From a virus: a DNA stretch of 21,069 nucleotides. Below the pieces are notes generated by a model that had not been told where the DNA came from, did not search any database, and saw only the letters and a program-made list of their open reading frames with translations. The first letter of the stretch is position 1. Every line of letters begins with the position of its first letter. Of this stretch, positions 3,601 through 20,205 are shown one piece after another. Location of the stretch: positions 1 through 21,069 of IMG/VR virus record IMGVR_UViG_3300022925_000220. One strand, written 5' to 3'. Made by a program: the position numbers and the translations under genes.

Positions 3601-6600
3601 CTGAAATCGTGCCAGTAGAAATTAAATCACCCGAAACGATTACATCAGCACCAAAATAAATCTTATCTGCTGTAACCGTAAAAGGCTGAATTGGTGTGTC
3701 AGCGGTAGAGTCAGGACTGACGATTGAGAACTGGTCTGCGACTACCGCGAATTCAGAAAACGGCGTTGCCCCAGCAGTCGTAGACAATAAACCAAACCCA
3801 GTTATGCGATTATTGTTATCTATCTTTACTGAGTAGTTAGCTTCAACCCCGTCGATAGAATTAGCTTGCGTTGTAATGCTCGCAGTATTCTCACCAACGG
3901 TTGTGGTTAGCGTCGTCAAATCTTGAGCCGTTGAAGTAACCACCCCATCAATCACGCTAACTTCTGTGCTGAGGCTGGACAATGCCCCTGCGGTAGCGAC
4001 CACCCCGTTTGTCGGGTCGTTTACCGTAGATTCTAATGCGGTAATCTGGATAGCTTGCGTCTGAATGCCGTTTTCATTGGCAAAAGTCTGAACTGTCAAA
4101 GCGTCGATTGCGCTTGATGAACCCGCAACAAAGTCAGTTAAATCTTGTAACTGTACTGTTCCAGAAGTTTCTAGGTCTAGTAAATCATCGCTTTCATCTT
4201 CGACTTCAGTCCTAAAGTGAAGGTCTTCTGTATATGTCGCGTCTAACGTAGTAATAGCGGATGAATTCGTATCAATACCATCTTCGGTAACTTCAACCCT
4301 GGTCGTCAGCGATGAAAGACCTGAAGCGTTCGCAGCGACACCTGTCGTGGCATCGTTGACCGTTGATTCAAGCGCTGTAATGTCAGACGACTGCGTTGTG
4401 ATAGTGCCTTCAGCAGTTGTTACTCGTGTGTCGAGTCCCGAGATAGCACTTGCGTTGGTGGTAATATTTCCTTCAGCGGTAGTTACATCTGTTTGCAAAG
4501 TCGTAATGTCTGAAGCATTAGTCGTAATTGACCCTTCAGCAGCCGTGACCCTAGTCGTTAGATTTCCCAGAGCTGTAGATGTTGCTGCAACTCCGGTGGT
4601 AGGGTCGTCAACCGTTGTCTCCAATGCAGTCACATCGGCTGCGATTGACGTTATAGAGTTGCCTTGTGAAATCGTAGTTGCATCTAATGCCGATATTGCG
4701 CTGGCATTACTGCTGACATTTGAGTTAGTCGTTGACAAGGATGTTTGCAGATTTGTAATATCAGATGCGTTTTGGGCTATCTGCGGGTTAGACAAATCAA
4801 TCCACGATGTCCCGTTCCAGTAGTATGGAGTATTAGCATTATCTGTTGAATCATACCATCGGGAAAATTCAGGTATCGGGTCTGGAATACCACCAACACC
4901 AGCAACAGGTTCAGTCTCCTGAATGTAAATATCAGACGTTCCTGACGTGATATCAACAATAACGTCTTCAAGGTTTGACAGCGAATTAGCGACAGTATTG
5001 ATATTGCTCTGAAGTACTGCATCTTGATTAGAAACGTAGATTGCCACATCACCGAGATTCTGGATGTCTACGTTTTGGCCTGTCTCTAAGTCTAAGACTT
5101 CACCAGCCTCGACTTCGACTTGCAGGATTTCTTGCGCCAAGACTGAGTTCTTTACATCATCTTGTGTCATCACCGTAGAGCCATCGGCGTCGTACAGGTT
5201 GACAGATATCTGCGCCCCTACGGTTGCGTTATCCGCTGGTGCATCTGTCGAGCCAGAAACGTCTGCCCATTCAACCCTGCCGACTGTAGCAAATACCGTA
5301 GTATTCGGGTCAGCATTCGGCTCCAAGTTGGACTGACTAGCCGCGTCAGTTCCTACGTTTTTAACAGCTCTGACCCAATAGTATCTTAAATTGCCTGGAG
5401 CAAGCGTTTCCCATAGGCTACCAGTTCCAGAGCCTGTAGAAGTTGCGGTAAAGACTACTCCAACTGTATTTGAAGCAGCGCCCATCGCCACAAAGTTTGT
5501 ATCCCCAACGGTTCTAATCGTGTAAGTGTCACCAACATTAACAACTGAAGGTGAAAATATTAAAGATTTGTTTGATGCGTCGTGAATAAACTGTGTGCCG
5601 TCTGTCTCACCTATCTTAACTGCTGAACTAAAATTACCGTTACGAGATGCGTAGACATATATAGTTCCGTAATCAGCGGGGCGACCAGGATTGACCCAGT
5701 TTAATTCGTTGCTCTTTAAACCTGGCGTAGCACTTAATCCAGATGGGCTAGGAACGCCCCTGAACCCGTCTGTGATGTCCCCAGTTGCGGTAATGGTTGA
5801 ATAGGCAACGGGAAGTGGGTCGGCGTAGGAAGTGCTAGAATCCTCTCTAAGAGTAAGATTAACCCCGCCTTCTTCTGAGAATGTCCAGCCTACACATAAA
5901 AAGACTTTGTTTGACCAGCTTAATTCTTCAACAGATACTTGGACTCTATCTCCAACGGTAATTCGTAACGCTGACAAGTTCGCTGGAAAACTAACGACTT
6001 TCTGCTGGTCGCTTAACTGGATTAATTTGTTAGACAGTCTCTGAGCCATGTAGCTAGAGTTAGTCATGGGATACTGTACTTCTTTCTCTAAGACTTCCCC
6101 GTTGTCTCTTGTTACAGCGTCAGCTAACTGTATTTTGGGAAACTCGCTAGACTTATAATTCTGCGCAGGGTCGATGAATATCCCTTTAATCGTGTTGAAT
6201 CGGTCCGACCGCTCAAACGATGTCTTGATACCAATAGCGCCGATAAGGTCATCTTCGTTAAGACTTTCAGTTGGCGCTTCGTAAATACCAGCCCTGATAA
6301 TGTATTTGCCGTTGGAATAAACCAACGAGCCATTCATTGAGGATAGGATTTTGTTTATATTTGCTCGGTTTGAATCTGTGCCGAACAGAACACCGTTACA
6401 GGTAAATCTGTTTTGAGTGCCGCCAGGAACATCAACAGAGACATCACATCCATCGGCGGCAGTTACTACTGCGTTCCAGTCTATTTTTGATGGGGCAATA
6501 CCCATTCCAAAGTCATCGTTGATTAGATAATCAATCAAACATAAAGCTGGATTGGTTGAATAAGCTATATAGCTCGCGTTGGTTACGTCTTGCCCATACG

Positions 6601-7330
6601 TCGCAACGCTTGCGAACTCTAATCTTGGGTCATAGACTTTTCGACCTTGAACGATAGCTTTGATGTCTGACGGTGCGTACTTATCCCAGACTTCTGCTGA
6701 GTCTTCGTTCAGCTTCCATTTCATTGCTATGTAAGCAATGCCTTTACCCTGATGTTCTGTAGTGTAATCAGCAAACGTGCCAGCCATCATAGAATCAGCA
6801 GCTTGTGTAGCCGTTCCTAAATGCTTGTTGATTACACAAATAGTCGTGCTGTTCTTAGGGCCAAAAGTCCCTGCTGTAACGTTACCGCCAGCACTAGAAC
6901 CACCATTTATCTGAGAATCCTCTATCAGCTCATTGTCAAAGTAGATATCCGTGATATCTGTGACTTCGTGCCCTGCTAAGGCTATGACGTGATATAGGTC
7001 TTCGTTGTCAGTTCCAGACATCCCTATATAGGAAATAGGGCCACTGACAAGCGTCTCACCATAGATGATTTTGTAGGGTTCAGTGGTTGACTTTACTGTT
7101 CTTTGTCTTGACGCATCGGTATCGACCTTTGGCATGTCGATTTCAAACAAAGAAGCCATAGCTTTGTTTGCTACTAGCGTAACGCCAGCAATAACTGCGC
7201 CTCCTAATGCTATTGCTTGCCCTATTCCAATAGAAGCGGCAGCACCAAGCCCACCGACAGCGCCTGCTACTGCAATACCGACTTTTTGCAAAAACAATAA
7301 AAAGGGTGCTACTGGCCCCATAACTTCCAT
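662..7330 (-). CDS. Giant central tail fibre / tail-tip hub protein (lambda J-like, 2222 aa)
   Basis: This is the host-specificity hub protein at the tail tip, corresponding to lambda J or the large hub protein of gene transfer agents. Residues 7-54 form a Gly/Ala-rich hydrophobic stretch typical of the N-terminus of this family. Residues about 66-520 match the hub core (KIIYGETLVSGPI; YHVIALAGHEV followed by DIYFDNELI). A fibronectin-III-like domain lies near residues 540-680, interrupted by an inserted module. Residues about 847-1144 are coiled-coil-like repeats rich in Ser, Thr, Asn and Ala. About 1341-1961 consist of duplicated beta modules, and the last 260 residues are a probable receptor-binding tip. 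At 2222 residues it is about twice the length of lambda J (1132). ATG 7330 overlaps the upstream peptidase-like gene; a second ATG at 7321 has a nearer GGAAG and could be the true start. It ends in an ATGA overlap. The family call is strong; the receptor is unknown. Confidence 0.9.
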   Translation of the reverse strand: MEVMGPVAPFLLFLQKVGIAVAGAVGGLGAAASIGIGQAIALGGAVIAGVTLVANKAMASLFEIDMPKVDTDASRQRTVKSTTEPYKIIYGETLVSGPISYIGMSGTDNEDLYHVIALAGHEVTDITDIYFDNELIEDSQINGGSSAGGNVTAGTFGPKNSTTICVINKHLGTATQAADSMMAGTFADYTTEHQGKGIAYIAMKWKLNEDSAEVWDKYAPSDIKAIVQGRKVYDPRLEFASVATYGQDVTNASYIAYSTNPALCLIDYLINDDFGMGIAPSKIDWNAVVTAADGCDVSVDVPGGTQNRFTCNGVLFGTDSNRANINKILSSMNGSLVYSNGKYIIRAGIYEAPTESLNEDDLIGAIGIKTSFERSDRFNTIKGIFIDPAQNYKSSEFPKIQLADAVTRDNGEVLEKEVQYPMTNSSYMAQRLSNKLIQLSDQQKVVSFPANLSALRITVGDRVQVSVEELSWSNKVFLCVGWTFSEEGGVNLTLREDSSTSYADPLPVAYSTITATGDITDGFRGVPSPSGLSATPGLKSNELNWVNPGRPADYGTIYVYASRNGNFSSAVKIGETDGTQFIHDASNKSLIFSPSVVNVGDTYTIRTVGDTNFVAMGAASNTVGVVFTATSTGSGTGSLWETLAPGNLRYYWVRAVKNVGTDAASQSNLEPNADPNTTVFATVGRVEWADVSGSTDAPADNATVGAQISVNLYDADGSTVMTQDDVKNSVLAQEILQVEVEAGEVLDLETGQNVDIQNLGDVAIYVSNQDAVLQSNINTVANSLSNLEDVIVDITSGTSDIYIQETEPVAGVGGIPDPIPEFSRWYDSTDNANTPYYWNGTSWIDLSNPQIAQNASDITNLQTSLSTTNSNVSSNASAISALDATTISQGNSITSIAADVTALETTVDDPTTGVAATSTALGNLTTRVTAAEGSITTNASDITTLQTDVTTAEGNITTNASAISGLDTRVTTAEGTITTQSSDITALESTVNDATTGVAANASGLSSLTTRVEVTEDGIDTNSSAITTLDATYTEDLHFRTEVEDESDDLLDLETSGTVQLQDLTDFVAGSSSAIDALTVQTFANENGIQTQAIQITALESTVNDPTNGVVATAGALSSLSTEVSVIDGVVTSTAQDLTTLTTTVGENTASITTQANSIDGVEANYSVKIDNNNRITGFGLLSTTAGATPFSEFAVVADQFSIVSPDSTADTPIQPFTVTADKIYFGADVIVSGDLISTGTISADRLQIDGVMFDTETVGGVTSLIIKESGINTSQIAENAITTARLSNDAVTVDKFANTLQSTNYVADTSGWQILTSGDVEFQNAKVTGEINATSGTLSSSIAIGTGDSIFKADSNGIYLGNATFASAPFRVTPAGDLTATSVNITGTVDASDGFTFDGLTVTGTLSAGNIDVDGVITSGSLITDSATIANDIRIGSGEAVFSADTNGIYLGNETFADAEFRVTPQGALTATSATLAGNVTASSFTLSQGATLSDLDGAISNAQQLMAQVTGVISENQHAIPSFWRITTDDNQAPSNSEFNTAAGRLAKVNDIVITTDTTTTPDTTYGWTCTGAGVADPATEATWVAITNFISGDLLVDGSVSADQINANSVASAVITAGSIVVENDLSDDTTIISGGNILTGTILADYIDVSGVINAGSLITDTATINNDIKIGSGESVFKADSNGIYLGNETFADAEFRVTPEGALTATSATISGAITATSLTLSEGVTIAKSVVGLANVDNVSQATIQSDTLTAATSSDVGLGNVENLDAQNQAQTGLIAGTTITGGGITLSSGGTIKGGQTEYDDDDAAGFFLGYDTDAYKFSIGNSDNTQKLTFDGSTLTVKGTITVGSTNLTEANTLNANTTATDVDLGNVDNTNSQTTTQNGLISGTTITGGGIIMSEGGAIKTTGKDSESDTTNGFFLGYNGSNYTFGVGDANQSMQWTGSALNIVGALTATSLNVTNITGAVTGFDAGKISGEVTEVYPISSTPNLSFDNSATPNATVMSVFSIPAPENSVSKRQRISLAFEVQSNRSSGSGLDSHTILYWVSRKSIGFEAVEIGDVTLLSTPVTNYVEVYTIDGNVTDIMDNNGAIAPNTNPTAAQIGKIIGVTYQAPTNKTNIEVSFGSGTSPHYSNGTTMYFSPSAFTASGVYPNSAWQGRQTLLLDGTSITYKTVPLIASFGATTVARDYRIYAQNQSQYTNLTVTCPKIYGTVENIA
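1440..2035 (-). repeat. Two-copy module (period 109 aa) within the central fibre gene
   Basis: Two adjacent protein modules share LGNV(E/D)N, then Q.GLI(A/S)GTTITGGGI, then GGFFLGY-type and F.(I/V)G(N/D) segments. The LGNV Leu codons lie at 2033-2035 and 1706-1708, exactly 327 bases (109 codons) apart. Motifs of the type VGLGNVDN recur in phage tail fibres. The second copy lacks part of the linker. DNA similarity is visibly lower than protein similarity. Confidence 0.75.
2130..3304 (-). repeat. Three-copy beta module within the central fibre gene
   Basis: Three units begin IAIGTGDS, IRIGSGEA and IKIGSGES, with first codons ending at 3304, 3031 and 2314. Each continues with the motif (K/S)AD(S/T)NGIYLGN.TFA, then FRVTP.G.LTATS. 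The latter two copies are nearly identical for about 19 residues. Comparing those copies, about ten of 57 bases differ, mostly at third positions, so the protein repeat is conserved while the DNA has drifted. The units are dispersed (273 and 717 bases apart), not strictly tandem. Confidence 0.75.
3900..4790 (-). repeat. Coiled-coil-like repeat shaft in the central fibre gene
   Basis: The encoded segment (about residues 847-1144) repeats short units such as TTAEG.ITTNAS.I and L.TRVT. Three copies of a conserved ALE(S/T)TV(N/D)D(P/A)T(T/N)GV motif lie at about 4580-4640, 4320-4385 and 3985-4045. Such heptad-like Ser/Thr/Asn-rich repeats form trimeric coiled-coil shafts in phage fibres. Spacing of the motif copies varies (roughly 250-340 bases). 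Confidence 0.7.
5407..5570 (-). other. Module inserted in a fibronectin-III-like domain of the hub protein
   Basis: Between the fibronectin-like strands GTQFIHDASN and NLRYYWVRAV lies a segment of about 50 residues containing VGDTYTIRTVGDTNFVA, then MGAASNTVGVVFTAT, ending in a GSGTGS linker. In lambda J-type proteins these two strands are normally joined by a short loop, so I read this as an inserted domain. The boundaries are approximate. Confidence 0.55.
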
Positions 7331-8330: not shown

Positions 8331-8935
8331 GCTAAGACATCCTCGACTGCCTCAATCGTAAAACTAGACACTAGACCTGGCTGGGTATCCCAAGACGTAG
8401 ACCCTGCGAGCATAAAAACACCAAGGACAGGATATAGATAATCAATAGGGTCGTCGTTGTCCGTGGGTTTCCTAATCGGCGGTGCTATCGGAATAGCTAC
8501 CTCGCCAATCCCAGATGAATTACAGTCATCTGTGACCATGTGAAGCTCGTTGTTGAAGGCAATGTAATCACCGGCCTTTAAATATCCCGTCTGGCTCAAA
8601 GTCGCACCGTCAGCGTTTAGGGTAGACCCTGTTTGACCAGCACCATTAACTAACAAGCTATCAGCGGGGCTAGGCGCTATGCCTCTCTTGACGTAAGCAT
8701 GGTCGGGCAAGAAAAACCTATGCTCTTGACCGTTTAACTTAGTCAGAAACGCTTGCATGATTGCCCTGTTGTCGCCAGTTAAATTATTAAACTGAAGCGA
8801 CGCTTTCCACAGAGAACCTTTCCTACCAACGGTCTGAACTGCGTTAGTCAAAGGGCTTTGAAACGTCCTTGTATTCGTCACCAGCTCAAACGTACTGGAT
8901 GATGGCGTTATGCTTGGAAATGTATAGGTTGTCAT
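8327..8935 (-). CDS. Distal tail protein, first tail-tip ring (lambda M / GTA gp12 position, 202 aa)
   Basis: The first gene after the tape measure, where distal tail proteins are encoded. Residues 1-100 form the tube-like beta domain: FPSITPSSSTFELVTNTRTFQSPLTNAV is characteristic of the opening strands, followed by KASLQFNNLTGDNRAIMQAFLTKLNGQEHRFFLPD. The middle (about 100-150) carries an inserted beta domain (LLVNGAGQTG, LKAGDYIAFNNELHMVTDD). The C-terminus returns to the tube fold with SFTIEAVEDVLA. Proteins of this shape form a ring ending the tail tube and docking the hub. The start ATG at 8935 overlaps the tape measure stop as ATGA and the stop overlaps the next gene in the same way. 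I infer this role from order and sequence style; an annotation tool might simply return hypothetical or DUF2460-like tail protein. Confidence 0.75.
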   Translation of the reverse strand: MTTYTFPSITPSSSTFELVTNTRTFQSPLTNAVQTVGRKGSLWKASLQFNNLTGDNRAIMQAFLTKLNGQEHRFFLPDHAYVKRGIAPSPADSLLVNGAGQTGSTLNADGATLSQTGYLKAGDYIAFNNELHMVTDDCNSSGIGEVAIPIAPPIRKPTDNDDPIDYLYPVLGVFMLAGSTSWDTQPGLVSSFTIEAVEDVLA

Positions 8936-11397
8936 ACGAAACGCCTTCTACGCATCAAATCTTGTATTGTAGCGACTGTCTGCTGCGAACTCTGTTGCAT
9001 TGCAGCGCGAATCTTCATATCTACGTTTGCGTCAGCGCCCTTTGCGTCAATGTTGTTTACGATAGTAATGCCGCCGCCTTGTCCTTTGGTATGGTCTATA
9101 ACCGTCTCATTGGGGTGAAGTATTGCAGGGAAGCCGCCCTTCCCATCTACACCGCCAGATCTAGCGCCCATCCCAGTAAAACCACCACCATCAAATGATG
9201 TTGATTTGATAGCTGCTACGTTAGCTAAACCAGCGGCCACAGCAGTTGCTGCAAATACTTTTGGTAGGGGCCAAGGGTAATTTGATGAAAGAGCGTTATT
9301 AGCCGCGTCGTATGTGTTCTGTATAGCATTGGCTATTTTGTATGCTTTCTGCGCCGCGAACATCTTCTTGTTTGCTGCTTGGACACCGGCAAACTGTTCG
9401 CCCAATTGACCTAGCATGTGACCAGTTAATTCGCTACCTCTTAAGATTTCCTGATCGGCCTCTTTTTTTAATAATCCTTTTTTCTTTTCGTTATAATCAG
9501 CAAGAAGTTTTAGCTGTAAATCCCTAGCAGCCTGTTCGGTAATAGATCTTGTTGCCAAAGCCTCGGCCACTATCTGATTCTGACTAACAAATGAATTAAA
9601 TAGCGCCTCCTCCTCAGTTGCTAATGATTGTCTTAAAGACTCAATGTTTGCTATACCAGCCTGCTTATCTTGCTCTGCCTTAAACTCCTTCATTCTTTCT
9701 ATAGCATTGTTGAAAGCTGTTTTCTGAGTTTCGTCTAACTGCGCAGTGAGAATGTTAGCCTCAAGAAGCTCTATATTGCTTTTACCAAGGGCAGCGGATT
9801 GAGCAACTACACCATCTACAAAGTTTTGTCTTGAGTTTGCAGCATCAATCTCTGCTTGTGCTGCTTTTTCTGTTTCTGATTTTGCTGTCTGTAATTCTGA
9901 AACTCTTTGCCTTAAAGCCATTACCATATCTATTTCAGAGGCGCTAAGTCCTTCGTTGGCAAGCTTTAATCTTTGAGCCGCATCTTCACTTATATCTAAA
10001 GAAATAATCTCATTTTGTAGCGACGATACTAACCCATCAACAGTTTGCTGAACCTGAAGTTGAGCTTCAGCTAACTCTTTCGCTTCTTTTGTGCCAGATT
10101 GCAACTCTTCAGAAAAGTTTGCTTGCAAGGCAGTTAATGCAGCTATCTGCCTTTCATTAAGCATTTCTGCTTCAGTTAATTCATCTATAGCTGTTTTAGC
10201 ATCAAGCAGTGCTTGCCTTTGCTCTGAAGTAGCGTTTTTTGTATGCTGAATTGACTGCAAGAGTGAGTCAAACGCTGGAACAGCGCCATCTACTCCCTGA
10301 CCTACAGCCACGGCAGCGGCGAGCAATTGCTCTGCCGAGTCTTTGGTTATACCAAATTCTGTCTTTAATTCTCCCAAACTTTGAGGAACAACAAGCCCAG
10401 CATGAGTACGGGTATCAAACTCATCTATCTTTTCAAGCAACCCTTCCTGTGCTACGGTCACTGATAAAATAGCTGCTTCTAATCCTCCCTTTAACTTTCT
10501 TCTAGCAAGATCTTCAGATACTTGTCCAAGCTCAATTATTTCATCGGTGAGAGTTCCTGTCCCAGCAACAAAGTCTAGGGCCATCACCTTGGCTACTCTT
10601 TCAGCAACTTCTTCCAGCTCTTCTAAATGATTTCTAGTCTTGAACAAGCTTGGCGCTAATGAAGTGCCAATCGCCGCACCAACCGCAAGCAAGGCACCAA
10701 TCAATGCGCCGTTTTGACCAAACAAAGAAGCAATCTGCGAACCCTGCTGCCCGAAGACCAGCATCGCGTTCTGTCCCATTTGAAGCTGTACTGCAATATC
10801 CTGAACTTGATGACCAAGCTGACCGAAGCCACCACGCATAATTCTAAGTCCAGTCTTAGACGTATTAGCCGCGACTACGCCTTGTTGTCGCATCTCGCTA
10901 GTGGCAAGTTGTGCAGCTTTAACTTGCTCTATTTGGGCCTTGCTCAACCCCATCAATTCTAGCTTCATGAGCTGGATCTGATCTGCCGTCATGTTGGCAG
11001 ACTGGGCCTCAAAATTTAACTGTCTTATAGTTTTTTCAGTTATATCCGCAGCACGTTGGTCTTCGTCTGCTTTAGCTTTAGCCTGGCGAGCAGCTTCTTC
11101 TTGAGCCTCTGCTTGGCGCTTGTGAGCGTCAATGGCTTGATGAAGTGAGGTGATATGGTCTAGCTGGGCCTGATTAGCGCCCATGTTGGCAGCAGCTAAT
11201 AGATCCAGCTCTTTAGCCGATTTCTTTAGTGCTTGTACTTGGGTTTCTAGCCCAAGTTGTATTTTGTCTATCGCATGCTTGCGAAATGCTTCAGAGGTTT
11301 TCTTTGCTCGCTCTACGTTACGAGCATAGGAGTTAAATCCTAATTTAGTTTGATCATCTATTAGGATTCTTGCTAGGACTGTGTCTCTTGTCGCCAT
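8932..11397 (-). CDS. Tail tape measure protein (lambda H-like, 821 aa)
   Basis: The tape measure sets tail length during assembly and is ejected with the DNA. Residues 1-170 are long charged helices. Residues 184-252 contain GGFGQLGHQVQDIAVQLQMG and the hydrophobic segment ALIGALLAVGAAIG (231-244), a typical membrane-active stretch of this family. About 255-700 is mostly alpha-helical coiled coil. Residues 735-771 carry the conserved FDGGGFTGMGARSGG, then FPAILHPNETVIDHTKG, seen near the C-terminus of many lambda-like tape measures, and it ends MRRRRFV. With about 0.15 nm per helical residue, 821 residues predict a tail of about 123 nm, close to lambda (gpH 853 residues). The ATG at 11397 lies inside the T extension of the frameshift product (44-base overlap), as in lambda, and has only a weak ribosome site, so translation is probably coupled. 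Confidence 0.92.
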   Translation of the reverse strand: MATRDTVLARILIDDQTKLGFNSYARNVERAKKTSEAFRKHAIDKIQLGLETQVQALKKSAKELDLLAAANMGANQAQLDHITSLHQAIDAHKRQAEAQEEAARQAKAKADEDQRAADITEKTIRQLNFEAQSANMTADQIQLMKLELMGLSKAQIEQVKAAQLATSEMRQQGVVAANTSKTGLRIMRGGFGQLGHQVQDIAVQLQMGQNAMLVFGQQGSQIASLFGQNGALIGALLAVGAAIGTSLAPSLFKTRNHLEELEEVAERVAKVMALDFVAGTGTLTDEIIELGQVSEDLARRKLKGGLEAAILSVTVAQEGLLEKIDEFDTRTHAGLVVPQSLGELKTEFGITKDSAEQLLAAAVAVGQGVDGAVPAFDSLLQSIQHTKNATSEQRQALLDAKTAIDELTEAEMLNERQIAALTALQANFSEELQSGTKEAKELAEAQLQVQQTVDGLVSSLQNEIISLDISEDAAQRLKLANEGLSASEIDMVMALRQRVSELQTAKSETEKAAQAEIDAANSRQNFVDGVVAQSAALGKSNIELLEANILTAQLDETQKTAFNNAIERMKEFKAEQDKQAGIANIESLRQSLATEEEALFNSFVSQNQIVAEALATRSITEQAARDLQLKLLADYNEKKKGLLKKEADQEILRGSELTGHMLGQLGEQFAGVQAANKKMFAAQKAYKIANAIQNTYDAANNALSSNYPWPLPKVFAATAVAAGLANVAAIKSTSFDGGGFTGMGARSGGVDGKGGFPAILHPNETVIDHTKGQGGGITIVNNIDAKGADANVDMKIRAAMQQSSQQTVATIQDLMRRRRFV

Positions 11398-11874
11398 CTG
11401 TTAATTCTCTTTTAACTCTAAAGAAAGTCCACCAGTGATCAAATTCAGAAACAGTCATGTCTAGGATTGTCGTTAAAGGCTGACCAAGGCGTTCAGCTAA
11501 CTCGTACATGTAGTATAGCTGAGTAGGTTTGTCTTGGTCAGTTAGGAGTTTTTTTCCCTGTCCTCCTCTGACTCAGAGTCAGCGGTAAGAACAAACGTAG
11601 CAAGCCGAGTCACTATGTCTGGATCTGCTCTACCTCTTAGCGCCAGCCTATCTTCAATGGTAAAGACGGGCTCACCTTGATCGTCAGCAAGACCAAAGAT
11701 TAATGCGTAGATTAGATAATCTGTGTTATCAGAATCTGCTCTACGCAACATCTTAGCTTTATCATCAAGCGTCAAGTTCTTAGCGTAAACAGTAACATCC
11801 CATTCTGGGACTTCCATTTTGCGAAGCTCCTTCCCCTTGAAATGCTCTACAGCATTTTCAATTAGCTTCGTCAT
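11354..11874 (-). CDS. Tail assembly chaperone, minus-1 frameshift fusion (gpG-T-like, 173 aa)
   Basis: The fusion is read from 11874 to 11548, where the base at 11548 is read twice, and then from 11548 to 11354. The first 109 residues are shared with the short form. The minus-1 frame then adds 64 residues beginning LLTDQDKPTQLYYMYELAE, with RLGQPLTTILDMTVSEFDHW next and FFRVKREL later. A Leu-rich helix followed by MTVSEFDHW is exactly the signature of T-type extensions (compare the SxxE(F/L)xxWxA(Y/F) pattern in related chaperones). The extension fills an otherwise unexplained gap of 144 bases and overlaps the tape measure start by 44 bases, as lambda T overlaps H. In lambda the T part binds tail tube protein and recruits it to the tape measure. 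The reading frame and signals are seen directly; expression is inferred. Confidence 0.88.
11480..11541 (-). promoter_or_regulatory. Frameshift-stimulating stem-loop
   Basis: On the transcript, CTGACCAAG (11541-11533) pairs perfectly with CTTGGTCAG (11488-11480), a 9-bp stem beginning 6 bases after the slippery heptamer. The enclosed loop contains a second perfect 6-bp stem, CAGCTA (11521-11516) with TAGCTG (11499-11494), which extends by ACT/AGT after a bulge. Spacing and stem strength suit a minus-1 frameshift stimulator. Confidence 0.75.
11542..11874 (-). CDS. Tail assembly chaperone, short form (gpG-like, 110 aa)
   Basis: This is the unshifted product of the tail chaperone gene, placed between tail tube and tape measure as in lambda G. 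It opens MTKLIENAVEHFKGKELRKMEVPEWDVTVY, a beta strand pattern common to these chaperones, followed by a helical region (LDDKAKMLRR, YLIYALIFGLADDQG) and an acidic tail ESEEDREKNS. Such proteins coat the tape measure during assembly and are absent from the virion. There is no good ribosome site: the ATG follows the tail tube stop after two bases (TAATAATG), so re-initiation is likely. The stop codon lies just behind a slippery heptamer and part of the ribosomes are expected to shift. Confidence 0.85.
   Translation of the reverse strand: MTKLIENAVEHFKGKELRKMEVPEWDVTVYAKNLTLDDKAKMLRRADSDNTDYLIYALIFGLADDQGEPVFTIEDRLALRGRADPDIVTRLATFVLTADSESEEDREKNS
11548..11554 (-). promoter_or_regulatory. Slippery heptamer A AAA AAC for minus-1 frameshifting
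   Basis: In the chaperone frame the codons read GAA AAA AAC TCC TAA, so the last A of GAA plus AAA AAC forms the X XXY YYZ heptamer A AAA AAC. A ribosome slipping back one base continues into the open T frame. The zero-frame stop is only one codon downstream. Confidence 0.88.
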
Positions 11875-11876
11875 TA

Positions 11877-12269
11877 TTAACTAACAACCGAACTAGTCAA
11901 TGCGCCAGTGCCTTGGAACGTGATAGATGCTTCTACCATTCCGTCAAAGCTTGAAGACTTGCTTACGCCAGTAACATGCATTGTACCTGTGTAATAGGTT
12001 GCACCAACCGCAGTACCTTCTGGATAAAACTCAATAGTCAAATCTTCAGTACCTACTGCAAGTGAAGTTTGAGCTGTGTCAGTTTCGTCCCAATAAACAT
12101 CCGCACTTCCGCTAAAAGAAGTTAAAGTGACCTTATGCGTTCTTGCCGAAAGGGTCATTGTGGTTGTTTCTACGGTATCAGCGGTCTCTTCAATAGAGAA
12201 GCTTCTCAGCTCTGCAATTGCATTAGCGCCTACTTTAATAACACCATCGCGTCCGATGTGAGTTGCCAT
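11877..12269 (-). CDS. Major tail tube protein (lambda V-like position, 130 aa)
   Basis: Residues 1-130 look like a single tube-forming beta domain: MATHIGRDGVIKVGANAIAE, then LRSFSIEETADTVETTTM, a strand VTLTSFSGSADVYWDETD, LTIEFYPEG and a final VSKSSSFDGMVEASITFQGTG. The alternating strands and the closing ASITFQGTG are typical of siphovirus tail tube subunits, which stack as hexamer rings around the tape measure. A strong ribosome site (AAGGAG, 8 bases before the ATG) marks a highly expressed gene, even though the ATG overlaps the previous stop by one base (TAATG). It is shorter than lambda V (246 residues) because it lacks the C-terminal Ig-like domain. Position directly before the chaperone gene agrees. 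Confidence 0.88.
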   Translation of the reverse strand: MATHIGRDGVIKVGANAIAELRSFSIEETADTVETTTMTLSARTHKVTLTSFSGSADVYWDETDTAQTSLAVGTEDLTIEFYPEGTAVGATYYTGTMHVTGVSKSSSFDGMVEASITFQGTGALTSSVVS

Positions 12270-12455: not shown

Positions 12456-12899
12456 CTATATTCCTGTTTCTGGAGCGTTTTGTGCCGTCCTATATTCTAC
12501 AACATAATTCATCGTTGCATACCCTACTGGATTCTCACCGTCACCATCATAGTCAATGTCAGTAGATTCCAGATAACTAAATCTTGCCTTACCGTTTAAC
12601 TTAGGGTCATTGCCCATAGCGGTTTCTACTTCCGCGCAAATCGTATCTATCGTATCGTCAAACGTAAGATTGGCTTTAACGTAAGCTTCTATCGTCAAAG
12701 TCATGGTTCTTTCCATTCCAAGACCAGTTCCAATAGTGGATATTGTACTTGTTTCAGCCTTAGAATAGATCACCAGGGCTGGCATAGACGTTTCGTTAAG
12801 AGGATAAACGCGTGACTGGAATACATTGCTGCCGGTCGTAGAAAGCCCTGTCAGCGTAGCTGCTACTTGCTCCCTGATTTGTTGCCTTATGTGACTCAT
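12456..12899 (-). CDS. Tail terminator protein (lambda U-like, 147 aa)
   Basis: The protein opens with a helix, MSHIRQQIREQVAATLTGL, followed by NVFQSRVYPLNETSMPALVIYS, a strand TMTLTIEAYVKA, a helix FDDTIDTICAEVETAMG and a final strand VGYATMNYVVEYRT. This alpha-beta order, with the R.YPL....PAL.IY segment, is characteristic of lambda U-type terminators, which cap the tail tube and join it to the head. The ATG overlaps the stop of the preceding gene (ATGA). A tail completion protein like lambda Z normally lies nearby; no second gene of that kind is seen, so this one could alternatively combine or replace that role. Order (joining protein, terminator, tail tube) supports the call. Confidence 0.8.
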   Translation of the reverse strand: MSHIRQQIREQVAATLTGLSTTGSNVFQSRVYPLNETSMPALVIYSKAETSTISTIGTGLGMERTMTLTIEAYVKANLTFDDTIDTICAEVETAMGNDPKLNGKARFSYLESTDIDYDGDGENPVGYATMNYVVEYRTAQNAPETGI

Positions 12900-13471: not shown

Positions 13472-14710
13472 TTATGCTCCGTCGTTACCGAGGGCGAAGC
13501 TAACTGCGTGTCGTACTGCGGTATCCATCGTTTGGATAGCACGAATACGAATTGTTCCGCTAAGACCATTCGTGTATGGGTCTAACTGGAGGTCAAGACC
13601 GCCCCAGAACCCAACTAAAAGATCCGCGAAATTGCCAAAATAAAGATCGCCAGCAGTTACCTGATTGGAAACGATTGAACGATATCCATTCAGAGTGTTG
13701 CCTGGCTCAACGATAAATTGAGCAGTACCAGTTGCTTTTTCTGTGGTCTTCAACGCACCAAACATACCAGAAGCTAAGATGTATGACAGGTTGCCCATGA
13801 GCGCATTGTCAGCCGCAACTAGAGTTTCCATGTCTACTACTTCAGCGTATGTTGGGTTTACAGCACCAAACGTCTTGCTGTTGATTCCAGCAGTATTTTT
13901 GATACCTACTGGTGATCCAGCAGCTCCGTCTCCTTGCAAAGCAGCAAGGTCCATAGCCAAAGCAATTGCTTGAGCAAGGTCATCTCGGACGAGGGATTCT
14001 AAATCCATTGTCTGTTGCTGAAGCATTCTTCGTGAAATTTGAGCGTATGCGCCTAAATCTTTCGGGGTCAGAGAGATCTGACTGAAGGTTGGCTCCGTCT
14101 GAACTACGTTGTCGCCTTCCGCTGCAAGCCATGCTGCCGTTGAAGCAGTTGCTTTCTTAGGAATCTTAACGTCGCTAGACAGTCCAGTCAGGGTGCGAGC
14201 ACCGGCCTGCATTACTGAAGACTGATTACGCAATACGTCGATGAAATCGCCAGCTCGGAAATCTTCCGTCAGTACGTTAGCATCGTCAGTAGTGTTCAAA
14301 TCACGCGTCCAGTTTGACAAAACGTCAGCAGGGAGCATAACGCCGCCCGTAGTTCTGCCGTACTGATTGCAAGCTGCTTCTGAGCATTCAAACTCAAATT
14401 TAGCGGCTTCTTGTGCACGTTTGTCAGTCGGATTAACCAAAGCATTAACCGCTCGCAAAATGCTGAATCGCTTTGCTTCTTTTTCGGTCAAGCCAATTTC
14501 TTGGTTGTTTAATGCTTTTTGAGAGCCGATTTCTTCTAGCAAAATGCCTCGGAATTCTTCAATGCTCCGTCCTTCTGAAATGGCTCGTTGGGCCATGTCA
14601 GACTTGTTGTGTCGAGCGCCAAGCTCAACGATTTGCGCTGCATTCTTTTGTTCTGCCTTGCGAGCTTCACTTTGAACCGCAGCAACGTCTACTACATTTT
14701 CTTCAGACAT
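13472..14710 (-). CDS. Nested start: major capsid protein with delta domain alone (412 aa)
   Basis: The in-frame Met207 (ATG at 14710) is preceded by GAGGT at 14718-14722, with 8 bases between GAGG and the ATG, one of the best ribosome sites of the window. It lies exactly at the end of the protease linker. Initiation there gives MSEENVVDVAAV followed by the delta region and the capsid shell domain, 412 residues, close to the size of HK97-type capsid precursors (385 residues in HK97). A virion needs hundreds of shell subunits but few proteases, so separate translation makes sense, comparable to the nested scaffold start in lambda C/Nu3. The signal is seen; use is inferred. Confidence 0.65.
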   Translation of the reverse strand: MSEENVVDVAAVQSEARKAEQKNAAQIVELGARHNKSDMAQRAISEGRSIEEFRGILLEEIGSQKALNNQEIGLTEKEAKRFSILRAVNALVNPTDKRAQEAAKFEFECSEAACNQYGRTTGGVMLPADVLSNWTRDLNTTDDANVLTEDFRAGDFIDVLRNQSSVMQAGARTLTGLSSDVKIPKKATASTAAWLAAEGDNVVQTEPTFSQISLTPKDLGAYAQISRRMLQQQTMDLESLVRDDLAQAIALAMDLAALQGDGAAGSPVGIKNTAGINSKTFGAVNPTYAEVVDMETLVAADNALMGNLSYILASGMFGALKTTEKATGTAQFIVEPGNTLNGYRSIVSNQVTAGDLYFGNFADLLVGFWGGLDLQLDPYTNGLSGTIRIRAIQTMDTAVRHAVSFALGNDGA

Positions 14711-15328
14711 TGATATTACCTCAATATGTGGGGTTTCGGTTTGGGTTGAAGGCTCGCTAGACCTACCTATGCCAACTGTCACGTCAGCAGGGATAGACAC
14801 TAAACTTGCCTCTACTGGTCGCCAAGATTTAGCGACATAAGTGTCGTTGCCTCTTTTCTCCAGTTTGTTGATAGAGTAACCAACACTAATGTTGGCTCTT
14901 ATTCCATCAACTACATCGTCGAAAGCTTCAACAGCCAGTCCGTTTCGTCCAAAACGAACTTTAGCGCGGAGTCGCCGCGTTTCACTGTCAAGTTCAACAG
15001 ATTCTACGATTCCTATAACCTTCTCGGGGTGGTGGTCGAGAAGGAGTGGGGCTCGTCCAGAAGCTAAGAAACTTAAATCAATAGCTTCAGGAGTATGTTC
15101 CAAAATTTCATTGCCAAACGACCTTTGAACAGGTTCCTCGCTGGATACCGCAATCATTACAGTCCGTTTTTCTTCGTCAATCGGCCCTTTGTCCAATTCC
15201 ATTGCGCGATGAATGACCTCTGGCTCAGACCGCTCAATGTCTTCTTTCATAGCTTCATAGACTTCTACAGCTTCCTCAACTACAACGTCAGGAGCTTCAA
15301 ATTCTTCACTCTCTCTTAAATCATCCAT
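13472..15328 (-). CDS. Prohead protease - major capsid protein fusion (HK97 type, 618 aa)
   Basis: Two head proteins are joined in one frame. Residues about 50-190 match the HK97-type prohead protease: LLLDHHPEKVIG with His99/His100 and ANISVGYSI with Ser148, a His-Ser spacing like that of HK97 protease, followed by the typical EASLVSIPAD (173-182). A linker (about 188-206) leads to a helical scaffold-like delta region (207-320: SEARKAEQKNAAQIVELG, LRAVNALVNP). The HK97-fold shell domain runs from about 324 (GRTTGGVMLPADVL) to 618, with IPKKATASTAAWLAAEGD, SLTPKDLGAYAQISRRM and GAAGSPVGI. The start has AAGGA at a 7-base spacing. The protease would process the delta region during maturation. 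Fusions of this kind occur in other phages. A strong internal start lies at codon 207. Both domains are clearly recognisable. Confidence 0.93.
   Translation of the reverse strand: MDDLRESEEFEAPDVVVEEAVEVYEAMKEDIERSEPEVIHRAMELDKGPIDEEKRTVMIAVSSEEPVQRSFGNEILEHTPEAIDLSFLASGRAPLLLDHHPEKVIGIVESVELDSETRRLRAKVRFGRNGLAVEAFDDVVDGIRANISVGYSINKLEKRGNDTYVAKSWRPVEASLVSIPADVTVGIGRSSEPSTQTETPHIEVISMSEENVVDVAAVQSEARKAEQKNAAQIVELGARHNKSDMAQRAISEGRSIEEFRGILLEEIGSQKALNNQEIGLTEKEAKRFSILRAVNALVNPTDKRAQEAAKFEFECSEAACNQYGRTTGGVMLPADVLSNWTRDLNTTDDANVLTEDFRAGDFIDVLRNQSSVMQAGARTLTGLSSDVKIPKKATASTAAWLAAEGDNVVQTEPTFSQISLTPKDLGAYAQISRRMLQQQTMDLESLVRDDLAQAIALAMDLAALQGDGAAGSPVGIKNTAGINSKTFGAVNPTYAEVVDMETLVAADNALMGNLSYILASGMFGALKTTEKATGTAQFIVEPGNTLNGYRSIVSNQVTAGDLYFGNFADLLVGFWGGLDLQLDPYTNGLSGTIRIRAIQTMDTAVRHAVSFALGNDGA
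14718..14722 (-). promoter_or_regulatory. Internal ribosome binding site for the nested capsid start
   Basis: GAGGT on the transcript, followed by AATATCA and ATG at 14710 in the frame of the fusion gene. It sits in the Pro/Thr-rich linker between protease and capsid domains, where a chance ribosome site would be less expected than within a helix-coding region. Confidence 0.65.
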
Positions 15329-15342
15329 AGATTTATCCTTGG

Positions 15343-15371
15343 CTTATAACCATGCTGTATAAGATTATCAA
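15343..15371 (-). promoter_or_regulatory. Sigma-70-like promoter candidate upstream of the protease-capsid gene
   Basis: On the minus strand TTGATA (15371-15366) is separated by exactly 17 bases from TATAAG (15348-15343), five of six matches to each consensus. The -35 element overlaps the stop codon of the preceding gene. The expected start of transcription near 15336 would leave a leader of only about 10 bases, cutting into the ribosome site, which argues against strong use. Confidence 0.35.
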
Positions 15372-16528
15372 ATATCTGTGTTATGTGGAATAAGTTTTGA
15401 CGCTTTCTGAACGCCTGTATTTATCACTTCAAGCGAGCTTGCGTTGGTGCTGACCAGGTTATTAACCGTCTCATCAATCACATTAGCTGTGCCTGTTGAG
15501 TTATCAACGACTCTACAAACACCCCTGACCGGAATAAAGCCAGCCGTTACAGATGAATGGATAATGCATACACCGCTAGAGAAATCTAAACATAAGTCGC
15601 CATCACCGCTGTTATCCGTATGGTTCCTAAGCTCTATGGCCCCTTGGTAGTCTCGGAGAATTAGCTGACCATTCCCATTGAAATCAATAATTGGTTGTTG
15701 TGTCCCTGCAAGCCTGTTAGAGAAACACGACAGCAAGGCTAGAAGCTCCCCTCCATTAATTTGTATCGTGCCGTTTAAGCTACACTGAAAAATAAATCCT
15801 GATGTAAAATCTACATCTAAGATAATACAGTTGCGATAAATATTATTACCGTCTGCCGTACCCTGAACCGACACATTATTAAACTCGCAGAACTGTACAT
15901 CTGCCGAGGGGTTTACTGTTATAACAGTCGTGCCTGGATTGTCTGATGTAAACACAAAGCCATCACTGAAGTCAGTGTTAGCTAAAGTACAAGAATCAAG
16001 AATCCTAATAGTCCTAGCGCCCTCTTTTATGGCGATAGTTCTTGCGTCATCAAAATTATTGACTGGCTGGGTTCTTGTCCCAATAGGCACATCTGTCCCA
16101 GCTTGACCGTTGTTTACATCAACACATACTTCGCCGTTATATGCGGAAGATAGAATAACTGATAAGTCTTGTAGCCCTGCTGAGTTAGCAGAACGAACTG
16201 AAACTTGGTTTACGTTTACAATGTCGCCTACGTTTGAGTTAGCACCGACTAAATTGACAGCATATTGTCCGTCTTCAAATGTGACAGTGTAACCATTGAC
16301 AATCTCAATCACGCGAGCAAGCGTCACGCCTCCAACAGTGACTGAAGTGTTATGTTTGTGCGTCTTTTCAAACGCCATTCCGTCTTCTGAGTCTTCTAGG
16401 TCTTTTAAAATCAACCTAAAAGAATCTAAGTTTAACTGTCGTATCTCTGTCGGTGAGGATTGAATAAGGGTCATATCCGCTCTGGGGATATTAATTACCT
16501 TAGTTCCCCAATTAATGGATATTGCCAC
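15368..16528 (-). CDS. Probable beta-helix virion protein (386 aa), capsid or tail fibre
   Basis: The start is GTG at 16528 (encoding MAISINWGT), well supported by GGAGGGG a few bases upstream. Residues 1-120 form an attachment-like domain: INWGTKVINIPRADMTLI, FRLILKDLEDSEDGMAFEK, then NGYTVTFEDGQYAVNLVGAN and VNVNQVSVRSANSAGL. I recall this N-terminal block as recurring in phage proteins of undefined role. From about residue 140, PIGTRTQPVNNFDDARTIA introduces repeated short strands with Cys, Asn and Ile (FCEFNNVSV, YRNCIILDVD, FQCSLNG, LLSCFSN) that look like a right-handed beta-helix. The C-terminus has DETVNNLVSTNASSLEV, possibly a trimerising helix. It overlaps the coiled-coil gene by 17 bases. 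Likely an external virion protein; capsid fibre, decoration or tail fibre cannot be separated by sequence alone. Confidence 0.75.
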   Translation of the reverse strand: MAISINWGTKVINIPRADMTLIQSSPTEIRQLNLDSFRLILKDLEDSEDGMAFEKTHKHNTSVTVGGVTLARVIEIVNGYTVTFEDGQYAVNLVGANSNVGDIVNVNQVSVRSANSAGLQDLSVILSSAYNGEVCVDVNNGQAGTDVPIGTRTQPVNNFDDARTIAIKEGARTIRILDSCTLANTDFSDGFVFTSDNPGTTVITVNPSADVQFCEFNNVSVQGTADGNNIYRNCIILDVDFTSGFIFQCSLNGTIQINGGELLALLSCFSNRLAGTQQPIIDFNGNGQLILRDYQGAIELRNHTDNSGDGDLCLDFSSGVCIIHSSVTAGFIPVRGVCRVVDNSTGTANVIDETVNNLVSTNASSLEVINTGVQKASKLIPHNTDI

Positions 16529-16721
16529 TTGTAGCCCCTCCGCTAAATAGTTTCACTTGGAGCTGTTGAACCTGTTGCATAATCATGTCTAATCTTTGAT
16601 TTAGCAACATATTTTCAGCCTGCAACTGAACGACCATTGCAAAAAGACTGTCTATGTCTGCCTTGTTTCCCTGACTATGCTGTAATACAGCTAGCATATT
16701 TTTATGATTGATATCAGTCAT
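16512..16721 (-). CDS. Small coiled-coil protein (69 aa) within the fibre cassette
   Basis: The ATG at 16721 overlaps the end of the 583-residue gene by 8 bases, and the 3' end overlaps the following gene by 17, showing a tightly coupled order. The product is almost entirely helical with heptad-like Leu/Met/Val spacing (LFAMVVQLQAENMLLNQRL then MIMQQVQQLQVKLF), ending in a flexible GGATSGNIH. It has no signal peptide. It could be an oligomerising adaptor for the neighbouring fibre proteins or, less likely, a spanin-like or other helper. The ribosome site is weak. The conserved order and lack of a better frame make it likely real; I do not recognise the family. Confidence 0.65.
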   Translation of the reverse strand: MTDINHKNMLAVLQHSQGNKADIDSLFAMVVQLQAENMLLNQRLDMIMQQVQQLQVKLFSGGATSGNIH

Positions 16722-18465
16722 CAGGTATCAAACTTACATTGATTGAAGTATCAGCAGAACTTGAGATAGTCCCCGAAATTGATGTTGCCTTATAATATGT
16801 TCCAAGTGAAGCAAGCCTAATATTGCCAACATAAGGCTGATTTCCAGAATAGCTTCTGGTGTCAGAGACTTGACCGCTGGCATTCGTTAATACTTTATCT
16901 ATTATCACGGTTCCTTCTGCCAATCCACCACCGGCTGCCGCTGTCACATAGACTCTTGCGTTTTGTAACGCCGCGTCAGTGTCAATATCTTTTACTGTGA
17001 TGGTAAATGTTCTTTGGCCGGCAACTACATTAACTGTGGCGCCTGCTGACCTTATGGATGGAATGCTTGCCCCATCTTGTACGTTTATGGTCAAAGTGCC
17101 TGAACCGACATTGACAAAGATAGCCTCATCGCCGGTTGAAGTTGGCGTAATAGGAGAGCCTGTTGAACCCGTATCATACCCAGACAATGAGCAATCCCAA
17201 TTCATACTGCCATCGCCTATTGATGTTAATTCTACGGCATGACCTGTTGCGCCCTTCGTAAACGAACAGTTAGAAAGGTTTTCTAGCTCAGTAGTTGTGA
17301 CCGCAGATGCTGCTGAACTTTCTGTGATAACGCAACTTGTCAGCGCAGCAGTGCCTGATAAGGTTATTTGGGCTGAATTTACAAACGCACAATCTACCGC
17401 TTCTGACCCAGTTACAAAAGTAAACCCAGCGCATCCTGAAATACTGTTGCCTTTAAAATTATGTGAAGCTGCGTCAAATGTTAATGAGCCTGTTAGATTT
17501 TCAAATGAGCATCCATACCAGTTACCTGTCTCTACGTTGCCATCAGAAAAATCAATACCAAAAGTGTAGGAATCATTGCCTACTATAGATATCCCGTTTC
17601 GTCCACCAGTTGTGCTTACAGGTTGTCCTAAAGACAAGCTGTTAGTTCCTGACCCGCCGACTACGTTTATTGCTGCGAAACTATTAGGAGCCGCATTGAC
17701 TTCAGCGCCCTGATAATAAATAGGTTCCGCTGCGAATATCTTAGAATCTTCATCGGTAATTGTAGATGCTGTTGCGCTGGTATCACCAAGAGTTAAAGTT
17801 CCAGCAATCTCAACAGCACTATTGGAATCGTTCAAAGACCGGACAATGCCGTATCTTTGCGTTGCTTCATTAGTCAGCAATTCATTAAAAAGACCTAGCG
17901 TTGAAGTGCCTGTAATAATCAAACCATTACCGACATCGCAAGCGTCTAAGATTAAATTATCAAAACGTGCTGTAGTACCGCCAACATCAGCGAACACCCC
18001 AATGTGGGTTATGTTTGATGTGTTCAGCGTACCAGCTCCACCAGACCTTGTTTTGGTTGGGTCAAGAATCATTCTTACCCAGCCGCCTGCATAATTATCA
18101 GACCCGTAGTATGTAAACAAAGAATAGTTGCTTGCAGTTGGTGTTCCTGAGCTTAAACAAATACCAAAGCCATTAGCTGCTTGGGTGTTTAGCAATGAAG
18201 CCGCAAGGAAGTTACCCCAAACATAAATCAGTTGACCTGATTCAGTTGTAGAAAAGTTCAAGGCAGAAGGAACTGCAACAAACAAAGCAACGCCTTGCTT
18301 GCTTACCTGTACAGTTATAGCTGTGCTTCCTTCTATAGAACCGTCAGCAGCCGCTGCGCTAGGAGAACCACCAGACCCAGCATATTTGACAACGGTGACA
18401 GAATCACTGCCATTATTAGCAGTGAACTGTCTACCATTACCATCCCATGCGACTGATACAGTCAT
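16714..18465 (-). CDS. Beta-rich virion structural protein with C-terminal Ig-like domain (583 aa)
   Basis: The ATG at 18465 overlaps the upstream stop as TAATG. Residues 1-190 look like a jelly-roll domain (VSVAWDGNGRQFTANNGSDS, ESGQLIYVWGNFLA, WVRMILDPTKTR, ARFDNLILDACDVG). Residues about 190-480 are repeated strand units with Cys, Asn and Ser (WYGCSFENLTG, NSISGCAGFTF, VDCAFVNSAQ, LSNCSFTKG, WDCSLSG), suggesting a beta-helix. From about 487 a single Ig-like domain follows: TFTITVKDIDTDAALQNARV, VLTNASGQVSDTRS and SISGTISSSADTSI. There are no obvious catalytic motifs. It is probably exposed on the virion as a fibre or decoration, given its neighbours. Which structure it belongs to is inference. 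Confidence 0.72.
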   Translation of the reverse strand: MTVSVAWDGNGRQFTANNGSDSVTVVKYAGSGGSPSAAAADGSIEGSTAITVQVSKQGVALFVAVPSALNFSTTESGQLIYVWGNFLAASLLNTQAANGFGICLSSGTPTASNYSLFTYYGSDNYAGGWVRMILDPTKTRSGGAGTLNTSNITHIGVFADVGGTTARFDNLILDACDVGNGLIITGTSTLGLFNELLTNEATQRYGIVRSLNDSNSAVEIAGTLTLGDTSATASTITDEDSKIFAAEPIYYQGAEVNAAPNSFAAINVVGGSGTNSLSLGQPVSTTGGRNGISIVGNDSYTFGIDFSDGNVETGNWYGCSFENLTGSLTFDAASHNFKGNSISGCAGFTFVTGSEAVDCAFVNSAQITLSGTAALTSCVITESSAASAVTTTELENLSNCSFTKGATGHAVELTSIGDGSMNWDCSLSGYDTGSTGSPITPTSTGDEAIFVNVGSGTLTINVQDGASIPSIRSAGATVNVVAGQRTFTITVKDIDTDAALQNARVYVTAAAGGGLAEGTVIIDKVLTNASGQVSDTRSYSGNQPYVGNIRLASLGTYYKATSISGTISSSADTSINVSLIPDD

Positions 18466-20195
18466 TAGGCATCACTTGTTCTGATTGCTGTCACGCTGGC
18501 ATCAGTAGCACCAAACACTGCTGATGTGATGAACTCTTTAATTGGACTAGCTCCACCATCTCTTACTTTCACCACTAGGTTTCGGTTTGAGTTATAAACT
18601 GCAGTGAAGTTTGCAGATGTTGCTGATGCTGTCTCATCAATGTATGCAATCCAAACATTGTTAGAGCTTGCGGCGTTGTCTCCGCTAAAGTCTGTTGAAG
18701 CAATAGTAAACGTCGAACCTGTATATGAAGTGTACGGTACTCGCCTATATGCTCCGCTTGCTAACTGAATTCTAATAACTCCTGCTGATGGGGTATCTGA
18801 AGGAATCGTTGTAGTCACGACCACGGCAGTTTCTGTCGCTCCAGTCAATGCTGTATTCAAAGATAGTTGGTCAGTGTCGATTGCAGGATTGCCTTCTGCA
18901 TCCGTAGAAGTACCATCCCAAGGGCCAACCAAAACTCTGTCTTCAGTGCTAATCAAACCACTAACTGTGAAAGTCACGTTGTTTGGTGGCGATACTTCAG
19001 ATGCAGTTAAGTCAAAGACCTTATCACTTGAGCCTAAGTCTTGAGAACCCACACCATAAGCACCGATAAGCGCTGAACCTGTAGAAACACCCAAGCCTGG
19101 CGCTGCTGTGGTTTCTACCGCTCTAGGCGTTGCTGTACCAGAAGCCGTACCTGTTGCAGTTGAAACGCCTGTAATAACTTGAGAATTCGTAGGAGCTGCG
19201 CCCGTCAGAAGCTGAATCCACATCTTCGTGCCGGCAGTAACTGAGTCGATGGCTAGCATCTGGCCTGTGCCGCCTGTCCAGCTTACTGCTTCAAACGCTG
19301 AGAAAGTTCCCGTTCTTGCTGACAAGCTGATTTCGTGAGTTACGCCACGAAACAAAAGACCGTTTAGACCGAATAAAGTCTCAACAGTCCCGTTTCTAGT
19401 AATGTATTTAGCTTTCTCATAGACATCATTGATGGCTGTTCTTGTGCCTTTGTCCCACTCAATATAATAGGCTTCATTTACGCTGTTGTTATCAATATCA
19501 AGTTCAACATAACCTTGAGTATTGGCAGACGAATCCCATCCCGCAACAGTTCCTGAAGCAGTCTGGTTGTTTAAGTCAGTCGACCTAGACAAAGCGAATA
19601 CGTTATTACCTCTTGACGTAGCAGAAATTGCAAATTCGCCATAGGTAAAACCGTAGTCACGGGTCAGACCTAGCAACTTTCGACCGTCAGTATCGGCTCC
19701 ACCTGTTCGTACTTTAATCATGAAACGGTGAGAAATACCGCCAGCCGCGTCAGAGTTAAGACCTAGACTTGCAGCGTTGTTGTCATTGTTCCACCAATCA
19801 TCAGAAATAACTGAACCGTTTTGAATAACCTGAATATCAGGCGCGTTACCAAAGTTTACAATTCCGTCATAAATGACATCACCGGATGATTGAATAATAG
19901 AACCGTCATACAAATGCTCGCTTGCAGCGTCATCAATATTGTAGTTGCCTAAAAGCGTGATGATGTTATCCGTAGAGCGTGATGATGGGTTTTCATCAGT
20001 AATGTCTAGCTGGTCATCGCCGCTTGAACTTGCATCATCTGCAAAGTCTTGCAATGCTCGGTGAAATTCAATTACCGTTGCGTAAGTCGGGGTTGTTCTT
20101 CCGTTAGTCCCAGCGGTTCCGTCGTGGTCTGCGCCAACGTACCGGATATTCCCGCTAGAACGCGTTATTTCCCAGTCTAATGGTTCAAATGCCAT
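18465..20195 (-). CDS. Conserved-type phage virion structural protein (576 aa)
   Basis: The start ATG at 20195 follows AAGGA at a 7-base spacing; that ribosome site overlaps the stop of the collagen-like gene, so the two are coupled. Residues 1-300 form a distinct domain: MAFEPLDWEITRSSGNIRYV, YATVIEFHRALQDFADDASS, HLYDGSIIQSSGDVIYDG, then GISHRFMIKVRTGGADTDGR and LLGLTRDYGFTYGEF. I recall this block from phage proteins annotated only as hypothetical or structural. Residues about 300-390 are Gly/Thr-rich strands, and the C-terminal part has Ig-like or jelly-roll strands (NVTFTVSGLIS; VRIQLASG-type). There is no transmembrane segment. Together with the 583- and 386-residue proteins it forms a set of large beta proteins. 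Role unknown; capsid or tail surface is my inference. Confidence 0.72.
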   Translation of the reverse strand: MAFEPLDWEITRSSGNIRYVGADHDGTAGTNGRTTPTYATVIEFHRALQDFADDASSSGDDQLDITDENPSSRSTDNIITLLGNYNIDDAASEHLYDGSIIQSSGDVIYDGIVNFGNAPDIQVIQNGSVISDDWWNNDNNAASLGLNSDAAGGISHRFMIKVRTGGADTDGRKLLGLTRDYGFTYGEFAISATSRGNNVFALSRSTDLNNQTASGTVAGWDSSANTQGYVELDIDNNSVNEAYYIEWDKGTRTAINDVYEKAKYITRNGTVETLFGLNGLLFRGVTHEISLSARTGTFSAFEAVSWTGGTGQMLAIDSVTAGTKMWIQLLTGAAPTNSQVITGVSTATGTASGTATPRAVETTAAPGLGVSTGSALIGAYGVGSQDLGSSDKVFDLTASEVSPPNNVTFTVSGLISTEDRVLVGPWDGTSTDAEGNPAIDTDQLSLNTALTGATETAVVVTTTIPSDTPSAGVIRIQLASGAYRRVPYTSYTGSTFTIASTDFSGDNAASSNNVWIAYIDETASATSANFTAVYNSNRNLVVKVRDGGASPIKEFITSAVFGATDASVTAIRTSDA

Positions 20196-20205
20196 TTTCT
20201 ATTCC

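Follow-up and report, generated by a model that had tools for sequence, protein, structure and literature searches.

The 21,069 nucleotide stretch of viral DNA analysed in this work (hereafter the window) carries a siphovirus tail module, in which genes for head closure, the tail terminator and the tail tube lie ahead of a gene for a tail assembly chaperone (G), and the -1 frame extension of G (T) is followed by genes for the tape measure protein, a distal tail protein and a J-like central tail fibre protein. The tail terminator gene is thus succeeded by those for the tail tube, G, T and the tape measure, and a G-type chaperone gene placed between the tail tube and tape measure genes is as expected for lambda-type G/GT systems. 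All of the junction genes lie on the minus strand, which the first-pass annotation of this DNA had not specified. The genes and sequence features at the junction, in window coordinates, are as follows:

12456..12899, minus strand, tail terminator (gpU-like; PHROG 4204, E=7.9e-26)
11877..12269, minus strand, major tail (tube) protein (PHROG 1407, E=7.9e-21; Pfam Phage_tail_2)
11542..11874, minus strand, tail assembly chaperone G, zero-frame ORF (110 aa; 110 codons + TAA)
11548..11554, minus strand, slippery heptamer A AAA AAC, in phase by codon reading and in relatives
11542..11544, minus strand, zero-frame stop TAA, two codons past the heptamer by codon reading
11533..11541, minus strand, 5' arm of the outer stem, CTGACCAAG (conserved core GACCAAG, 11539..11533)
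11516..11522, minus strand, 5' arm of the inner hairpin, TCAGCTA (register not conserved among relatives)
11493..11499, minus strand, 3' arm of the inner hairpin, TAGCTGA (pairs with TCAGCTA)
11480..11488, minus strand, 3' arm of the outer stem, CTTGGTCAG (conserved core CTTGGTC, 11488..11482)
11354..11548, minus strand, -1 frame extension T, 64 codons + stop (open frame; PHROG matches in homologues)
8932..11397, minus strand, tape measure protein (PHROG 1538, E=4.7e-31)

The G protein matches the tail assembly chaperone family PHROG 344 (E=3.9e-10) and, under its gathering score, Pfam TAC_13 (E=2e-4). Profile matches for the T half, to PHROG 25875 and PHROG 337, are weak (E about 0.002 in the window and 4e-6 for the best of its relatives), though clearer in the relatives than in the window, and no Pfam match of note was obtained for it. 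In the relatives the -1 frame is kept as a protein with a T-type domain, its homologues matching the tail assembly chaperone family PHROG 25875 in 10 of 11 cases and the tail protein family PHROG 337 in 9 of 11, which supports the T-type character that the first-pass annotation had ascribed to the extension.

The final zero-frame codons of G are GAC AGG GAA AAA AAC TCC TAA, and this reading gives A AAA AAC the phase that a tandem -1 slip requires. The heptamer is separated by the 6 nt spacer TCCTAA, which includes the zero-frame stop, from a stem in which CTGACCAAG (11541..11533) and CTTGGTCAG (11488..11480) pair over 9 bp, and within which the TCAGCTA/TAGCTGA hairpin is nested. The -1 frame stays open for 64 codons up to the stop at 11354, giving a predicted GT fusion of 109 + 64 = 173 residues, and overlaps the tape-measure start (ATG at 11397) by 44 nt; between the stop of G and this ATG 144 nt are left. 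The phasing, spacer, open frame, overlap and gap are thus all as described in the first-pass annotation. Folding of the window sequence at this site gave a minimum free energy of -21.2 kcal/mol (z = -3.8), which was equalled by none of 200 dinucleotide shuffles. By mere number, AAAAAAC is not enriched in the window (3 observed vs 6.6 expected), and therefore the case for this site stands on its phase, place and conservation.

Relatives were gathered by two separate routes, one based only on G and the other only on T. An in-phase X XXY YYZ heptamer is present close to the junction in all of the 234 related loci that have a T half, and a broken heptamer or T frame was seen at none of them. The 80 loci from the T-profile scan were found independently of the slippery site, and the junction of every one carries such a heptamer in phase (A AAA AAC in 76 loci, G GGA AAC in 4); elsewhere in the same G genes in-phase heptamers occur at only 14 of 5856 other codon positions. 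The 61 distinct non-outlier junctions, of which 57 hold A AAA AAC and 4 hold G GGA AAC, can be aligned without gaps, and in this alignment the heptamer, the T residues L1 and Q5 (upstream of any ATG) and the stem are kept at constant spacing. Among the 25 distinct junctions examined for their reading frames, the AAC of the heptamer is followed by the zero-frame stop, either at once or with a single codon in between, in 25/25, the T frame is open for 64-72 codons in 25/25, and the tape-measure start overlaps T by 44-62 nt.

These comparisons bear upon two ways in which the T half could be expressed without ribosomal frameshifting. Slippage of the RNA polymerase on the A run would yield mixed mRNAs and hence GT, and the seven consecutive A of the window, like the run of eight A followed by G in L205, L231 and L232, are what such a process would use. 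However, the in-phase heptamer is also kept where there are only six A, as in GGGGAAAAAAC of the L040/L081 group, or only three, as in the GGGAAAC of L140, L142, L146 and L235. Runs of six or three A are shorter than those known for efficient polymerase slippage. Transcriptional slippage, which also has no need of the covarying downstream stem described below, is on account of this retention of phase considered very improbable. Alternatively, G and T could be separate proteins, with T initiated from its own start at the ATG of T codon 14, which is retained in 59 of 61 relatives. This is the sole candidate ATG, yet it is replaced by ATT in L218 and L223, the T protein is conserved for 13 codons upstream of it (including the invariant L1 and Q5), and a separate start would leave the invariant phase of the heptamer unexplained; because of the upstream conservation and the two relatives without this ATG, we regard internal initiation as scarcely credible.

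The outer stem is a conserved feature of this group whose predicted pairing is supported by covariation. Its 7-bp core (GACCAAG/CTTGGTC) is paired in all of the 61 non-outlier junctions (60 of 60 distinct junctions in a further count), and among the 5151 possible 7-bp helices in the 61 distinct junctions it obtained the top covariation score. Of the perfect 9-bp stem noted in the first-pass annotation, all 9 pairs are formed in the window, but the outermost pair (columns 13/74) is not conserved, whereas 8 bp are kept in about 90% of the relatives; hence the stem of the family is one of 7-8 bp with a spacer of 7-8 nt, and a conserved downstream helix, with the base of its core 7-8 nt past the heptamer, is found at a fixed short distance. 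In the 53 distinct 84-nt sequences, 98.8% of the cells of the 8-bp stem are paired compared with 91.1% after shuffling, and 23 cells are changed on both sides compared with 3.9; the compensatory changes that the first-pass annotation had proposed to look for in both stems are thus present in the outer one, while those of the nested stem are at shuffle level. Both-sided changes occur at three pairs, where the pair types are A-U, C-G or G-C at one position, G-C or C-G at the next position outward, and A-U or G-C at the third. Some of these changes entail coupled amino acid replacements, viz. Asp to Pro on one arm together with Gln to Glu on the other (C-G for G-C), and Asp to Ala on one arm accompanied by GGT to GGG on the other. 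On a tree from the G protein alone at least 7 changes were counted at pair 16/71; only three concordant contrasts fall on starred, well-supported branches, which are too few pairs for significance in a sign test and give the phylogenetic test of double changes low power.

Frameshifting could be real and the stem a mere by-product of protein-coding constraint with no stimulating effect, since its arms encode the conserved residues D-Q and L-G-Q and many predicted hairpins at shift sites seem to be fortuitous (PMC4066793). Codon usage within the arms argues against this. For the Leu encoded in the 3' arm, 59 of 61 relatives use CTT and the other 2 use CTC, whereas four or five codons are in use where Leu is invariant elsewhere (codons 1 and 17 of T), and the Gly codon (GGT, GGG or GGC) tracks the bases of the opposite arm. 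In addition, the folding energy is better than that of synonymous-codon shuffles that preserve the protein (mean z -2.8). A purely coding origin of the stem is accordingly judged unlikely. According to a further proposal, frameshifting in the tail chaperone gene of this lineage requires an RNA stem maintained so strictly that it has shaped the codons, and even the amino acids, of both arms, and this stem would act as a stimulator on a heptamer that works poorly in E. coli; the proposal appears to us about evenly balanced.

Several other candidate elements were considered and set aside. The second, nested stem of the first-pass annotation is formed in the window, but it is rejected as a conserved element: the exact pairs are formed in 58.8% of cells across relatives (67.1% for another register) and their both-sided changes are no better than in shuffles. 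Compared with synonymous shuffles, the relatives show a slight preference for a generic inner hairpin whose register shifts (mean z -1.4), and in the window 12 of 100 synonymous shuffles fold as well. A Shine-Dalgarno-like AGGAGG is present in the window 7 nt upstream of the heptamer (11567..11562); as a stimulator of the dnaX type it was rejected, anti-SD pairing across relatives being not clearly above that of synonymous shuffles. The same applies to a pseudoknot between loop columns 50-56 and columns 108-114 (80.5% paired vs 78.7% shuffled), in which the pairing is attributed to conserved Glu and Phe codons. No tRNA genes were found within the window, so that it encodes no phage Lys or Asn tRNA, and an Rfam search of the window gave no match.

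The gene order, the family matches, the universal in-phase heptamer, the T frame open in relatives and the covariation of the stem together support the G/GT cassette put forward in the first-pass annotation, and are most readily explained by a lambda-type programmed -1 ribosomal frameshift that joins the tail chaperone G to T, a reading to which we assign a probability of roughly 0.95 on these comparative grounds. Most ribosomes would read G and stop at TAA, while a minority, with Lys-AAA and Asn-AAC on A AAA AAC, would slip one base back on both codons, probably aided by the RNA stem that begins 6-8 nt further downstream, and would continue for 64 codons to yield the 173-residue GT. The ratio of G to GT would then be set by the efficiency of slipping. 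By analogy with lambda, G and GT may form a coat around the tape measure protein, with tail tube subunits recruited through the T domain. We infer slippage, its efficiency, its stimulation by the stem and the role of GT from the anatomy, conservation, pairing and homology observed at these loci. A point against this reading is that ribosomes of E. coli slip much less readily on A AAA AAC than on A AAA AAG (PMC5009743).

In phages with long tails, -1 frameshifting from G to GT is described as standard (PMC5009743, citing Xu, Hendrix and Duda 2004). As far as the lambda gpG/gpGT system is outlined there (Levin 1993; Xu, Hendrix and Duda 2004, cited in PMC5009743), the window shares with it a chaperone gene immediately upstream of the tape measure gene, an X XXY YYZ sequence close to where G ends, a -1 extension T and a fusion of low abundance, the last of these being predicted for the window. 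The two differ in that the window has A AAA AAC where lambda has G GGA AAG, that it has a downstream stem supported by covariation, and that its G and T are only distant relatives of those of lambda. The first-pass annotation regarded A AAA AAC as a variant site; this claim fails, as the site has already been described for tail chaperones, viz. in the relevant passages on Caulobacter phage phiCbK gp93/gp94 (PMC3556154), Acinetobacter phage Loki gp12/gp13 and IME_AB3 (PMC5313236), and, tentatively, Paenibacillus phage Dragolir (PMC6003738), and also for the archaeal virus HCTV-2 (PMC5009743). Like the window, phiCbK, Loki and Dragolir have a tail chaperone -1 frameshift predicted at AAAAAAC; they belong to other phage lineages, and those passages make no mention of a covarying stem.

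Among cultured phages, Rhodobacter phage RcCronus (RCCRONUS_11/_12; KR935217) has a homologous G (26% identity) in the same gene order and a two-piece -1 join annotated at this junction, but differs in its GGGAAAC site and in having a shorter T of 46 codons. Roseobacter phages CRP-811 and CRP-406 and Pelagibacter phage HTVC026P share the in-phase AAAAAAC, the open T and the gene order, whereas no GACCAAG/CTTGGTC stem is apparent in their sequences. In the records of these three phages the T half is left as an unannotated gap before the tape measure gene (L237 8942-9081, L073 1183-1322 and L072 1539-1706).

The new part of this work is modest: for a marine phage lineage it adds a T half that had not been annotated and a stem with support from covariation. 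A missed gene half is thereby confirmed in an uncultivated marine phage group, with the same omission in the cultured Roseobacter and Pelagibacter phage records, and the covarying stem offers a clean natural data set on the relation of RNA structure to the G:GT ratio at a slip site that is poor in E. coli.

A side lineage (L205, L231 and L232) reads CGA AAA AAA AGC TAG at the junction, has ELRQP in place of LGQP and has apparently lost the GACCAAG/CTTGGTC stem, which makes it a natural contrast for stem dependence. Two other loci with G, T and the junction (L235 and L234) are on contigs binned as metagenome-assembled genomes (MAGs) of Euryarchaeota and Gammaproteobacteria, and the Euryarchaeota assignment probably reflects mis-binning of a phage contig.

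Elsewhere in the window, 662..7330 encodes a tail tip protein of 2222 residues, which has a Phage_Tail_Tip domain and whose long middle section resembles a coiled coil. The major capsid protein (13472..15328), whose closest cultured match is that of Roseobacter phage CRP-811 (59% identity), matches prohead protease families in its upstream region, viz. Peptidase_S78 (under the cut-off) and the major head and protease protein PHROG 4523, which suggests from homology that the gene encodes a fused protease-capsid protein. The region directly ahead of the capsid gene (15368..20925), whose place is occupied by the portal gene in CRP-811, encodes three large proteins (386, 583 and 576 aa) with no PHROG or Pfam match, which are perhaps decoration or adhesin proteins, and also a collagen-like protein that matches tail fibre families.
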